Shown here: positions 57,174 to 61,571 of the stretch, one piece after another
How the letters are laid out: every line of letters begins with the position of its first letter
Numbering within the stretch: the first letter of the stretch is position 1
Assembly (NCBI RefSeq): GCF_003568865.1
Contig: NZ_CP031115.1
Location: 2,728,001-2,792,000 of the forward strand
Direction: 5' to 3'
DNA length: 64,000 nt
From: Rubrobacter indicoceani
GTDB lineage: Bacteria; Actinomycetota; Rubrobacteria; Rubrobacterales; Rubrobacteraceae
Made by a program: the position numbers and the translations under genes
Notes under the pieces: model-generated
Database searches by the model: none
Seen by the model: only the letters and a program-made list of their open reading frames with translations
What the model was told of the DNA's origin: nothing

Positions 57174-58136
57174 ATGAGCGTGAAATTCGGGGTGTTCGTG
57201 CCGCAGGGCTGGAAGATGGACCTGACGGAGATACAGGACCCCGTAGAGCAGTACGAGGCCATGACGGAGGCCGGAAGAAAGGCCGAAGACCTCGGCTACG
57301 ATTCGGTGTGGGTCTACGACCACTTCCACACCGTCCCCGAGCCGACAAAGAACACCGTTTTCGAATGCTGGACGATCACGGCGGGCCTGGTGCGCGACCT
57401 GAGAAGGATAAAGGTCGGGCAGATGGTTACGTGCAACGGCTACCGCAACCCGTCCCTGCTAGCCAAGATGGCCTCGACGGTGGACGTGATGTCGGGTGGG
57501 CGGCTCCTCTTCGGGCTCGGGGCGGGCTGGTACGAGCACGAGTGGCTCGCCTACGGTTACGGCTTCCCGGAGACCGGGCAGCGCATTCAGTCCTTCAGGG
57601 AAGCGTGCGAGATAGTCCACGGTATGTGGACCGAAGACGACTTCACCTTCAACGGGAAATACTACTCGGTGGACGCCCCGATCAACGAGCCAAAAGGCGT
57701 CAGGAAACCGCACCCGGAGTTCTGGATCGGCGGCGGCGGCGAGAAGGTTACCCTGAAGCTCGTGGCGAAGTGGGGCGATGCCTGTAATATCTCCGGGGAT
57801 GAGACGGTGCTTCGTCACAAGCTCGGCATCCTCAAGCAGCACTGCGACGGCCTCGGACGGGACTACGCCGAGATCACCAACTCAAACATCGTGGATGTCC
57901 ACGTCATAGACGACGGCGAGAACCCCGAAGAGGCCACAAGAGCCGCGCGGGGCGACAGGTCTCTTGAAGAATATGCCAGCGGCAGGGTCGTAGGCTCCGC
58001 AGAAGAGGTAACCGAGAAGCTCAGGGCGCGCGCCGACGCCGGGGCCGACTACTTTATCGTCTACCTGCCCCGCGTAGCCTACGACCACCATCAGCTGGAA
58101 CTCTTTGCAAGGGACGTGATGCCCGGGTTCTCCTGA
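57174..58136 (+). CDS. F420-dependent LLM class oxidoreductase
   Basis: 320 residues from the ATG at 57174 with GGGAGGAG 5 nt upstream; longer readings have no such site. LLM barrel: VKFGVFVPQGWKMDLTEI, AEDLGYDSVWVYDHFHTVPEP, GGRLLFGLGAGWYEHEWLAYGYGFP and EFWIGGGGEKVTLKLVAKWGDACNI (read in pieces). This is a common actinobacterial F420 group of unknown substrate. The 248-base gap before it (56926-57173) shows no gene that I recognise. Confidence 0.88.
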   Translation: MSVKFGVFVPQGWKMDLTEIQDPVEQYEAMTEAGRKAEDLGYDSVWVYDHFHTVPEPTKNTVFECWTITAGLVRDLRRIKVGQMVTCNGYRNPSLLAKMASTVDVMSGGRLLFGLGAGWYEHEWLAYGYGFPETGQRIQSFREACEIVHGMWTEDDFTFNGKYYSVDAPINEPKGVRKPHPEFWIGGGGEKVTLKLVAKWGDACNISGDETVLRHKLGILKQHCDGLGRDYAEITNSNIVDVHVIDDGENPEEATRAARGDRSLEEYASGRVVGSAEEVTEKLRARADAGADYFIVYLPRVAYDHHQLELFARDVMPGFS

Positions 58137-58143
58137 GCGGAGG

Positions 58144-58187
58144 CTTTTTAAGGATCTCTTAACGATTGCTTAAGGAGTTTCTAAGCC
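58144..58187. promoter_or_regulatory. Array 1: four 11-bp direct repeats (OmpR/PhoB-type site)
   Basis: Four consecutive 11-mers: CTTTTTAAGGA, TCTCTTAACGA, TTGCTTAAGGA and GTTTCTAAGCC. The core (T/C)TAA recurs in exact 11-bp phase at 58148, 58159, 58170 and 58181. Eight nt after the last repeat lies TAACTT (58196-58201), a -10-like hexamer, and the candidate small RNA begins about 8 nt later. The layout matches activation by an OmpR-family response regulator. Confidence 0.7.
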
Positions 58188-58208
58188 GGAGGGGTTAACT
58201 TCCTCTCT

Positions 58209-58339
58209 AAGGCAGGGCGACGGTTTTCCTGCGGCGGAGACCCGGCGGTTCAGAAGCCGCCGGAGGTGGCGGGGCATCTATTACTCCGCTCCTTGTCTCG
58301 CTACCTGCTCCGCTTCGGCGAGGTCGCCCTGCTTTTTTT
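58209..58339 (+). ncRNA. Candidate small RNA with closing stem and U-tract
   Basis: GCAGGGCGAC (58212-58221) pairs perfectly with GTCGCCCTGC (58323-58332), followed at once by seven T. Between the arms are a perfect 7-bp hairpin CCGGCGG/CCGCCGG (58242-58263) and a CGC-TTCG-GCG tetraloop hairpin (~58311-58320). No open reading frame with a ribosome-binding site fits inside. A -10-like TAACTT and an 11-bp repeat array lie just upstream. I do not recognise a known RNA family. Confidence 0.6.
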
Positions 58340-58363
58340 GTTTCCGGGCTTCGGTTTTCGAGC

Positions 58364-58407
58364 AGTTCTAATCTCTCTTTAATGTGTGTATAACTCTGCT
58401 CTAACCC
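58364..58407. promoter_or_regulatory. Array 2: four 11-bp direct repeats upstream of the secreted-protein gene
   Basis: AGTTCTAATCT, CTCTTTAATGT, GTGTATAACTC and TGCTCTAACCC follow one another, with the core TAA in exact 11-bp phase (CTAA, TTAA, ATAA, CTAA at 58368, 58379, 58390, 58401). CAAGAT (58416-58421) lies 8 nt after the last repeat, the same offset as in array 1, and would start a ~50-nt leader for the gene at 58479. Confidence 0.65.
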
Positions 58408-58478
58408 TGATCGAGCAAGATATCCTTGCTGTAGTGGTTCTCCATGCGATTCGGTGAGAAGAAAGGTCCGGGGGAGAG

Positions 58479-59174
58479 TTGAGGGTTTCACATCTCATGA
58501 TCGCGGTGGCCGCCGTTGCCATACTGTCAGCCGGGTTTATCTTCGGGTGGACGGTAGCGAACGACTCCGGCGAGCGGGCCGCCGGGGAGTGGTCCGAGGA
58601 AGTCGCGGCGACGGACCCGCCACCGCCAGCGCGGTCGCTTTCGGTACCGGACGACGACGTGGAGGGCTCGGACATCGTGGGTCTTCCGAGGTACCCCGGC
58701 TCGGTCCGGATAGAGTACATCCGGGAGGATCAGGGCGAGCTTATCTGGACAGAGACCGAGTACCTTACCGACGCCACGCTGGAGCAGGCTCGCGAGTTCT
58801 ACCGGGATACCTTCAGGTCCAGCAACTGGTCGGTCAACGACATCGGCTTCACCCAGAACTCCTGGGTTTTCTTTGTCGTTGACGACGAGCGGGAGGTCTT
58901 TGTCAACCTGCGCCCGCGAGGGGACATCGTAGAGATAGACATAGAGCACACGGAGCCCGACAGAGCGGAGCCGACGGAGCCCGCAACCGCCGGCGAAGGG
59001 CAGCAGGTCCCCGCCGACGCCTCAGGCGACGAGAACGCCGGGGAGAACGCCCCGGCCCCGGAACAGGTCGCCCCGCCTCAGCGGCCCGCCTACGAAGTCC
59101 CGCCGGCCACGCCGTACTACGGGGACGAGGGCTACGATGAGGACTATGACGACTACGAAGAGTACGACGACTAG
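58479..59174 (+). CDS. Predicted secreted or membrane-anchored protein with acidic tail
   Basis: About 231 residues from TTG (GGGGGAG just upstream but close); the ATG at 58497 is an alternative. An N-terminal hydrophobic segment (LMIAVAAVAILSAGFIFGW) is an anchor or signal. A small domain follows (LPRYPGSVRIEYIREDQGELIWTETEYL, LEQAREFYRDTFRSSNWSV, read in pieces), then Pro/Glu/Ala-rich sequence and an Asp/Tyr/Glu-rich C-terminus. The domain order resembles the lipoprotein at 31060. Upstream it has array 2; downstream it is convergent with the response regulator. Confidence 0.7.
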   Translation: MRVSHLMIAVAAVAILSAGFIFGWTVANDSGERAAGEWSEEVAATDPPPPARSLSVPDDDVEGSDIVGLPRYPGSVRIEYIREDQGELIWTETEYLTDATLEQAREFYRDTFRSSNWSVNDIGFTQNSWVFFVVDDEREVFVNLRPRGDIVEIDIEHTEPDRAEPTEPATAGEGQQVPADASGDENAGENAPAPEQVAPPQRPAYEVPPATPYYGDEGYDEDYDDYEEYDD

Positions 59175-59213: not shown

Positions 59214-59888
59214 TCAGCGGGGTCGGTCGAAGCGGTAACCGGCCCCTCTCACGGTCGTGATCACGGACGGCCGGTCGGGGAGGTCTATCTTTTTCCTGAG
59301 GTACCTGACGTAGACGTCCACGACGTTGGAGCCGGGGTCGAAGGAGTAGTCCCAGATGGCCGAGAGGATCTGCTGCCGGCTCAGAACGTGACCGGGGTGC
59401 TTGGTGAAGTACTCAAGCAGGGCGAACTCCCGGCTGGAGAGCTCCACCTGTTTTCCGGCCACCCAGACCCGGTGGGCAAGAAGGTCTATCTTGATCTCCC
59501 CCATCTCGATAACCGAGTTCTCGGTCTGCTCGGAGCGGCGAGAGAGAGAGCGGATGCGGGCGAGGAGTTCTTCGAGGGCGAAGGGTTTGGTCAGGTAGTC
59601 GTCGGCCCCGTCGTCGAGGGTGGAGACCTTGCTCGTCAGCTCGTCCTTGGCGGTGAGCATGATAACCGGGAGGTTCGGCTTTCTGAGCCGGACCCGCTTG
59701 AGAACCTGTCGTCCGTCGAGGCCGGGGAGCATGATGTCGAGCAGCACGAGGTCTACGTCCTCCTCGGTGGCGAGTCTGAGCCCCTCGTCGCCGTTGTCGG
59801 TGATGATCGCCTCGTACCCCTGAGTCATAAGACCCCGCTGGAGCATCCGGGAGATGCCGGGTTCGTCTTCGACGATGAGTATCTTCAT
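59214..59888 (-). CDS. OmpR-family response regulator
   Basis: 224 residues. Receiver domain with acidic pair in LIVEDEP, phosphoacceptor Asp51 in LLDIMLPGLDG, Thr in MLTAKDE and Lys in YLTKPF. The C-terminal winged helix includes LSSREFALLEYFTKHPGHVLSRQQIL and VDVYVRYLRKKID, ending VRGAGYRF. It is divergent from its histidine kinase. Proteins of this family bind 11-bp-phased direct repeats, and three such arrays lie within 2.5 kb. Confidence 0.96.
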   Translation of the reverse strand: MKILIVEDEPGISRMLQRGLMTQGYEAIITDNGDEGLRLATEEDVDLVLLDIMLPGLDGRQVLKRVRLRKPNLPVIMLTAKDELTSKVSTLDDGADDYLTKPFALEELLARIRSLSRRSEQTENSVIEMGEIKIDLLAHRVWVAGKQVELSSREFALLEYFTKHPGHVLSRQQILSAIWDYSFDPGSNVVDVYVRYLRKKIDLPDRPSVITTVRGAGYRFDRPR

Positions 59889-59942
59889 CTTTTCCCTTCG
59901 TGCGCCTTTGCCCGTGCGTAATTTACTATACGTTCATTGCCC

Positions 59943-61421
59943 ATGAAGAAAGCTCGCGAAAAGTTAACCGGGGTGAAACGCAAGCCTCGCGGAAACGACC
60001 TGCCCCCCGAGGACTCGCTTCTCTCGACCGGACACCCCTGGCGGGTAACGGTCTGGGCCCTGCTCGGGCTGCTCGCCGCCATCATGATCGTCGGTCTGGT
60101 CGGGGTCTTTGTAAACCGGGACATCCGCAACGCCGCCGCCGACGCCCTTGAATACGACGTGGAACTCGAAGACCACGGCGATGACCTTCGGGTGGCGATC
60201 CTCGAAGTCCGGCAGCAGCAGCGTACGCTCTACTTCGGAGGGCAGGGCCCGACCCGCGCGGGTCTGGCCTCGCTCCAGACCTCCTACCAGCTTCTGGAGG
60301 AGGAGATATACGAGTACGCCGAACTCGAGGTCCGCGAGGACGACATCGCCTCGCCGCAGGAGATACGAAATCTCGCCGACCGGTACTACTCCGACTACAT
60401 CGCGGCGATAGAAGAGTTCGAAGACACCGGGGACCGCGCGGCCTGGGACGCGGCCAACGACCTCGCCCTCGCCCGGATAGATGAGATGCAGCTCCTCGCC
60501 GGTGAGATAGACGAGGTGGGAGAAGAGCTCTCGGAAGACTCCCTCTCGCGGGTGGACCGGGAGGCGCGAGCCGGGATGATCGCGATCTCGGCCGTCGTGG
60601 TCGGCCTTCTGCTCGTCGGGGCGATGCTCTCCTACTCGACTTTCCGGGTCGTAAACGAGCTCCGCTCTCTTTACCGCAAGCAGCAGAAGACCGCCGAGGA
60701 ACTCGCCGCCGCCTCCAGGGCGAAGACGGACTTCCTGGCCGACGTCTCCCACGAACTCCGCACCCCGCTCACCGTGCTTCGCGGCAACGCCGAGATCGGC
60801 CTGCAGTTGCAGCACGATGACACGCAGCGGGAGATCCTCTCGGAGATCCTCACCGAGTCGGACAAGATGGGGCGGATGGTCGAAGACCTTCTCTTTCTCT
60901 CGCGCTCGGACTCCTCCTCCCTGCCGCTTGAGATAGTCCCCGTCGAGGTCGGCACGATGCTCTCCGAAGTCGCCGCCCGCGCCGCCGTGCTCGCCCGCGA
61001 ACGTGGCTCGGAACTGAAGACCGACCTGCAGGCAGGCGGCGACTTCGAACTCGACCCCCCGCGCATCGAGCAGGCCGTCATGATCCTCGTGGACAACGCC
61101 GCCAAGTACGCCGGACAGGATAGCCCCATCACCCTCTCGACCCGCTCCCCGGTCGGCTCGGACCTTATCGTTGAGGTCAAAGACAACGGACCGGGTATCC
61201 CCGAAGAGGAACTGGAGAAGATCTTCGACCGCTTCTACCGGCTCGACAAGACCCGCTCTCGCAAGCTCGGCGGCACCGGCCTCGGCCTCCCGATAGCCCG
61301 CACCATCGTCGAAGCTCACCGGGGAGGGATCTCCGCCGCAAGCTCTCCCGGCGCGGGAACCACCATGACCATCCGTATCCCGCAACCCATACCGAACCCG
61401 GAGCTTACCTTCAAGCCCTAG
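59943..61421 (+). CDS. Sensor histidine kinase
   Basis: About 492 residues from the ATG at 59943; a TTG two codons earlier lies 7 nt after TACTAT and could be a leaderless start. Two membrane segments (VWALLGLLAAIMIVGLVGVFV and MIAISAVVVGLLLVGAMLSY) enclose a ~150-residue helical extracytoplasmic sensor. HisKA carries the phosphoacceptor His270 in SHELRTPLTVLRGNAEIG. HATPase motifs are VDNAAKYA, VKDNGPGIPEEELEKIFDRFYRLD and GGTGLGLPIARTIVEAHRG (read in pieces). It partners the divergent OmpR-type regulator. The signal is unknown. Confidence 0.95.
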   Translation: MKKAREKLTGVKRKPRGNDLPPEDSLLSTGHPWRVTVWALLGLLAAIMIVGLVGVFVNRDIRNAAADALEYDVELEDHGDDLRVAILEVRQQQRTLYFGGQGPTRAGLASLQTSYQLLEEEIYEYAELEVREDDIASPQEIRNLADRYYSDYIAAIEEFEDTGDRAAWDAANDLALARIDEMQLLAGEIDEVGEELSEDSLSRVDREARAGMIAISAVVVGLLLVGAMLSYSTFRVVNELRSLYRKQQKTAEELAAASRAKTDFLADVSHELRTPLTVLRGNAEIGLQLQHDDTQREILSEILTESDKMGRMVEDLLFLSRSDSSSLPLEIVPVEVGTMLSEVAARAAVLARERGSELKTDLQAGGDFELDPPRIEQAVMILVDNAAKYAGQDSPITLSTRSPVGSDLIVEVKDNGPGIPEEELEKIFDRFYRLDKTRSRKLGGTGLGLPIARTIVEAHRGGISAASSPGAGTTMTIRIPQPIPNPELTFKP

Positions 61422-61482: not shown

Positions 61483-61515
61483 ACTTCTCACCGCCGTCTA
61501 ATAGTCCTTTAACGA
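61483..61515. promoter_or_regulatory. Array 3: three 11-bp repeats upstream of the Arg-rich microprotein
   Basis: ACTTCTCACCG, CCGTCTAATAG and TCCTTTAACGA in exact 11-bp phase. The last matches the second repeat of array 1 at 9 of 11 positions. CAGAAT (61524-61529) lies 8 nt after it, the same offset as in arrays 1 and 2, giving a leader of about 35 nt. Confidence 0.55.
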
Positions 61516-61571
61516 GCCGTCGTCAGAATACGGATCGTAAGGTAAAGAGAAGCACAACAGAAGGGAACGAG

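Follow-up and report, generated by a model that had tools for sequence, protein, structure and literature searches.

In the window, i.e. the whole 64,000-nucleotide stretch of Rubrobacter indicoceani DNA that was analysed, 342 bp separate a gene for an F420-type oxidoreductase (57174-58136) from a gene for a predicted secreted or membrane-anchored protein, and this gap holds a repeat array with a -10 box, a candidate RNA gene ending in a run of seven T, and a second array (Table 1). An OmpR/PhoB-type response regulator, a histidine kinase and a third array follow. In the case of the regulator, the nearest solved chains in the PDB are those of M. tuberculosis PhoP (E 1.8e-51) and the nearest NCBIfam families are CopR/PhoB-like, below cut-off; the top NCBIfam families of the kinase (PnpS, WalK and PhoR) all score below cut-off as well. 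The 231-aa protein has homologs in 14 of the 39 family genomes and matched nothing in Pfam and NCBIfam or in a scan of genome contigs; it carries an acidic tail, and its start codon is apparently TTG here and another non-ATG codon in its relatives. A viral scan gave no match. Below, G000 denotes the genome of the window (3.08 Mb), G001 that of R. radiotolerans, and G013 and G021 two Rubrobacter MAGs.

Table 1. Features of the candidate RNA locus and its surroundings (positions in the window)
Feature	Position	Strand	Remarks
Array 1, four hexamers in 11-bp steps	58147..58185	+	presumed site of the OmpR-type response regulator
-10 box TAACTT	58196..58201	+	exactly 10 nt past the last hexamer
Candidate small RNA gene, ~130 nt	58208..58339	+	start estimated from the -10 box; T-run marks the presumed end
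Closing stem, 5' arm	58209..58221 (perfect part 58212-58221)	+	from the fold; 8 aligned pairs kept in 4/4 homologs
Internal hairpin 1, 9 bp, GC-rich	58242..58263	+	hairpin recurs at this place, sequence not conserved
Hairpin 2	58264..58306	+	presents the conserved loop (58277-58293, 17 nt)
CAT, possible anti-AUG	58275-58277	+	
Invariant core ACTCCGCTCCTTG, putative anti-Shine-Dalgarno	58283..58295	+	identical in 4/4 homologs
Closing stem, 3' arm, with T7 run	58323..58339	+	predicted intrinsic terminator
Array 2, four hexamers in 11-bp steps	58367..58421	+	CAAGAT at 10 nt; putative separate promoter for the gene at 58479
Predicted secreted or membrane-anchored protein, 231 aa	58479..59174	+	presumably co-regulated neighbour
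OmpR/PhoB-type response regulator	59214..59888	-	presumed activator; Pfam Response_reg and Trans_reg_C
Histidine kinase of the pair	59937..61421	+	Pfam HisKA and HATPase_c
Array 3	61486..61529	+	-10 CAGAAT at 10 nt; before Arg/Asn-rich ORF and MsbA-like ABC exporter gene
Arg/Asn-rich ORF, 45 aa	61572-61709		between array 3 and MsbA-like ABC exporter gene

An earlier note, made from the letters alone, had described 58209-58339 as an RNA candidate closed by a perfect 10-bp stem and followed by seven T, and both points are borne out on reading: the arms GCAGGGCGAC (58212-58221) and GTCGCCCTGC (58323-58332) pair perfectly, A-U and G-U pairs lengthen the stem out to 58209/58335, and the T-run (58333-58339) counts exactly seven. 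The arms are thus where they were said to be, but lie 101 nt apart instead of the 102 nt given. Likewise, the internal hairpin exists but comprises 9 bp, not 7, in the minimum-energy fold, whereas a UUCG hairpin claimed to lie between the arms is absent from that fold and not kept in the relatives, and was dropped as a functional part. The candidate RNA folds with -77.6 kcal/mol (the z-score is -5.4 over 58205-58345 and -6.0 over 58209-58340), a stability equalled by none of 200 shuffles. A GC-rich genome yields stable folds everywhere, as is seen from the mean of -50.6 kcal/mol for 320 windows (141 nt each, sampled every 200 nt on the plus strand), and a GC-rich inverted repeat could by chance have come to lie beside an array that serves another purpose. 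The fold of the candidate is, however, the lowest of all 320, and its homologs show compensatory changes and an invariant loop (see below), which makes an origin by chance very improbable.

A search with the 371-bp region recovered a 29-nt match in R. radiotolerans, the sole congener of G000 among the genomes searched, at a syntenic position with the same neighbours in the same order. The assignment of G001 to R. radiotolerans agrees with an 8-kb stretch of its contig C2 that is identical to plasmid NZ_CP007516.1. The 13-mer ACTCCGCTCCTTG is found in 6 of the 39 family genomes: at the same locus in G000, G001, G013 and G021, and elsewhere in G004 and G032, where it is accompanied by neither array nor synteny and was taken as a chance match. 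G013 and G021 appear to correspond to two Rubrobacter MAG contigs that a DNA pattern picked out (JACDAJ010000086.1 and JACCWD010000118.1). The locus therefore occupies the same place in four of the 39 genomes and is absent from the other 35, the regulator pair being retained in several of these. A covariance model built on the four sequences returned these same four with strong scores (E 7e-20 or better, which is inevitable for its own input) and no further convincing match over the 39 genomes; a hit in G062 (E 0.08), with no array seen in the flank examined, was put down to chance. Within this set of 39 genomes, the RNA family appears in two genera only, g1 (G000, G001) and g13 (G013, G021). 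Folded alone, each homolog gives a closing stem, one or more inner stems and hairpins (z -6.0, -4.1, -4.4 and -4.9), the last hairpin carrying a loop of 17, 17, 16 and 16 nt, respectively. A T-rich tail is also present in R. radiotolerans and G013, and the terminator is weak in G021.

In the alignment of the four homologs, the 13 pairs of the structure are standard in 51 of 51 cells, and pairing falls to 40-53% when partners are slid as a control. Three of the eight closing-stem pairs have changed on both sides (C-G/U-A, A-U/G-C and G-C/A-U), i.e. the stem carries compensatory changes. Since at least three doubly changed pairs also arise in 78 of 500 shuffles, such pairs are by themselves not rare, and the case is built on all the measures combined. 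With no more than four homologs, of which two are siblings from a single genus, the covariation is modest. The tested structure was, moreover, derived from folds of the same four sequences, which tilts the comparison in its favour. The lower part of hairpin 2 was left out of the pair count on account of a gap misplaced there in the alignment; in both G000 and G001 it is paired, but by differing bases. A comparison with Rfam 15 yielded no match at the gathering cut-off, either in the window or in the three homolog loci (the best sub-threshold match, CRISPR-DR4 on the minus strand, scored 15.5 bits), and 6S, SRP and the other known families were rejected as a consequence. Both results, i.e. the compensatory changes and the lack of a known family, support the original reading of the locus as a new small RNA.

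That this transcript would specify no protein had also been proposed, and agrees with what we find: in the window it contains no ATG and no ORF that closes inside it (the longest GTG frame, of 25 codons, overruns its end), and the substitutions between two sibling homologs fall 9/5/8 over the codon positions, without codon bias. A short protein encoded at the locus could be suspected from an ATG frame of 50+ codons that runs across it in both G013 and G021, but this frame is not common to all four homologs and, given the codon-position substitutions, we rejected the protein reading as exceedingly improbable. Judged from the comparative evidence, the locus is very probably a real and conserved RNA gene.

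The most telling element of this RNA is one that the earlier note had left unnamed, namely hairpin 2 with its conserved 17-nt loop. A 13-base stretch, ACUCCGCUCCUUG, is invariant in all four homologs, with 11 of its bases open in the loop of 16-17 nt; these first 11 bases are unpaired with a probability of 0.80-1.00 in all four ensembles, and beyond the core the two genera have strongly diverged in transcript sequence. The core complements a strong Shine-Dalgarno sequence, which is contained in its reverse complement, CAAGGAGCGGAGU. Directly 5' of the core, both g1 genomes have CAU and both g13 genomes CAC, the CA sitting in the stem end, and the four sequences suggest that these triplets are the complements of AUG and GUG at the usual distance from the anti-Shine-Dalgarno bases. 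A loop that is far more conserved than any stem could also be expected if the RNA acted via a protein (the ribosome, RNA polymerase or an RNA-binding protein) and the C-rich loop were a protein site or decoy, and a conserved mRNA partner was indeed not found. The core nevertheless reads as a clean anti-Shine-Dalgarno sequence, and neither 6S nor another Rfam family was matched, so that a protein partner seems to us distinctly improbable.

The hexamers of array 1 are TTTAAG (58147), CTTAAC (58158), CTTAAG (58169) and TCTAAG (58180). Array and -10 box align across the four homologs without a gap, the boxes being TAACTT, TAACTT, TACATT and TAGTTT (TANNTT), and the spacing of 10 nt is identical in all four, which strengthens the earlier assignment of the start to array 1 and TAACTT. 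The position of this box makes a start near 58208 plausible. The -10 score was compiled for 20 hand-picked array promoters, phased on the last repeat unit: those of 4 RNA genes, 9 genes of the secreted protein, 5 ABC/Arg-rich units and 2 lipoprotein genes. This set excludes homologs from G009, G010 and G034, a G001 gene (L037), the protease gene of G023 and the paralogue in G013. The score shows a single peak, at offset 10, where it averages 3.1 bits and exceeds 3 in 13 of the 20 promoters, against a mean of -1.9 at the second-best offset. The three-unit array pattern is rare: G000 has it at 4 places, and nine other genomes have between 1 and 7 matches apiece; the matches of G011 and some other genomes look unrelated, and an array-like match at G000:C1:600776 was taken as AT-rich chance. 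In several genera, arrays precede homologs of the secreted-protein gene and the ABC/Arg-rich unit. As the arrays accompany the neighbourhood of the regulator in this way, their co-occurrence makes the adjacent OmpR-type response regulator the likeliest binder.

The arrangement of the arrays also bears on whether the RNA is an independent transcript. Lying on the same strand and directly upstream of 58479, and with a weak terminator in G021, it could instead belong to the secreted-protein gene as a structured 5' leader or an attenuator, with some signal deciding whether transcription from array 1 stops at the T-run or continues through it. This gene has, however, an array and -10 box of its own, and arrays stand before it in other genera that lack the RNA; moreover, in the window the T7 run comes after a strong stem, and a leader would not need a conserved open anti-Shine-Dalgarno loop. 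We therefore hold a leader to be unlikely.

Two further arrays were noted. One (L043, G000:C1:2800777) stands before a small acidic lipoprotein gene that adjoins a cupin gene, a layout with a counterpart in G019 (L064, 1124, minus strand); the Asp-rich tail of the lipoprotein resembles that of the 231-aa protein. The other, in G023 (L067, 2193, minus strand), precedes a gene for a subtilisin-like secreted protease, a pairing that hints at an envelope or secretion regulon.

With respect to targets, a search of G000 for the full complement of the 13-mer core gave no site other than the RNA locus itself. The pattern AAGGAGYGGAG occurs 3 times in G000 (outside the RNA), 14 times in G001, 14 times in G013 and 23 times in G021, which is not clearly above controls; 30 of 58 matches were examined at their loci. 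The Shine-Dalgarno sequence of murC in G000 (at the murG-murC junction, G000:C1:1508146, L090) is an exact 12-nt complement of the RNA loop, such that 12 bp would form across it, immediately before the AUG; the duplex with the bare loop has an energy of -21.2 kcal/mol, within the lowest 0.02% of window positions. The start of murC was examined in 21 of the 39 genomes, and apart from G000 none has this match; R. radiotolerans, G013 and G021 are among the 20 that lack it. We therefore treat murC as no more than a lead. The ribosome-binding sites of the array-bearing genes pair with the loop only moderately and not consistently. The L043 lipoprotein gene, which has an array of its own, carries AAAGAGCGGAG ahead of its ATG; in R. 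radiotolerans the gene was not seen at this position, and its copy in G013 is preceded by a different ribosome-binding site.

The locus combines the features of a two-component-controlled, trans-acting small RNA, i.e. a putative promoter of its own, a stable and conserved fold, a predicted terminator and no protein. We consider it likely (with a probability of roughly 0.7) that it specifies a trans-acting RNA of ~130 nt that is activated by the adjacent OmpR-type regulator and blocks the initiation of translation. Once phosphorylated by the kinase, the response regulator would bind the four 11-bp direct repeats that closely precede the -10 box, and would thereby activate transcription. The long closing stem may protect the 5' end of the RNA and, together with the T7 run, end its transcription, and hairpin 2 would hold out the loop of 16-17 nt, in which the conserved CUCCGCUCCUU pairs with Shine-Dalgarno sequences and the CAU or CAC just 5' of it possibly serves as an anti-start codon; at target messages, such pairing would keep ribosomes from starting. 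The conserved structure of the locus, its loop and its promoter layout emerge from the comparison of the homologs, and from these we infer its transcription, the identity of the regulator, the pairing and its targets, and a role at the envelope.

Rubrobacter is an actinobacterial line known for its radiation tolerance. Its regulatory RNAs seem to be undescribed, none having been found in the part of the literature that our search covered, and the present analysis provides a concrete RNA, a likely switch and a testable loop; the candidate is present in a cultured species, R. radiotolerans. More tentatively, and with the odds against it as a whole, the locus might define a new family of Rubrobacter RNAs in which the loop complements the whole translation start (anti-Shine-Dalgarno plus anti-AUG or anti-GUG, depending on the genus). 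Such RNAs would act as a broad brake on messages with strong Shine-Dalgarno sequences, including those of cell-wall genes such as murC, when an envelope-type two-component system is on, by a promoter logic reached independently of streptococcal CiaR.

CiaR is a regulator of the OmpR family. The csRNAs under its control are preceded by a direct repeat TTTAAG-N5-TTTAAG (11-bp step) placed 10 nt before the -10 box and consist of a short RNA with a terminator and open anti-Shine-Dalgarno and CAU or anti-GUG bases; they have a conserved nonamer, [A/C]UCCUAAA[A/C], which about four of them lack (PMC3091779). The Rubrobacter RNA shares the repeat step, the 10 nt to the -10 box and the logic of the open anti-Shine-Dalgarno loop, but differs by its four repeats, looser hexamer, single copy, different fold with a long closing stem, and phylum. 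There is also no sequence relation. Set against the NTTAAG-N5-TTTAAG repeat of the csRNAs, the last hexamer of array 1 is TCTAAG, GCTGAG or TTTAAT in the homologs, its final G not being invariant, and the nonamer, looked for by eye, is absent from 58208-58339. The same promoter spacing and anti-start loop may have arisen in both streptococci and Rubrobacter.

In Listeria, LhrC1-5 are five LisR-controlled copies with three redundant UCCC sites, no repeat element for LisR being known from that paper (PMC4132741). There too, the RNA is under an envelope-stress two-component system and uses a CU-rich loop to mask the Shine-Dalgarno sequence (PMC4132741), but the two RNAs are unrelated in sequence. 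The same paper names RsaE, RNAIII and FsrA as RNAs with C-rich loops that bind Shine-Dalgarno sequences (PMC4132741); their motif is UCCC, as opposed to UCCGCUCC here, and their regulators and lineages are different. Mcr7 of M. tuberculosis is controlled by PhoP, and its major loop is predicted to mask tatC from the ribosome-binding site through the first codons (PMC4038636). It resembles the present case in being actinobacterial and in its regulator, since among solved structures PhoP is closest to the regulator of the window; it differs in its target, with no homology seen. In all three systems, a two-component system is coupled to an RNA that masks a ribosome-binding site. As sequence ties to csRNA, LhrC and Mcr7 and the csRNA nonamer are missing, we file the Rubrobacter RNA as a separate family, which by analogy most likely works like the pairs CiaR/csRNA, LisR/LhrC and PhoP/Mcr7.
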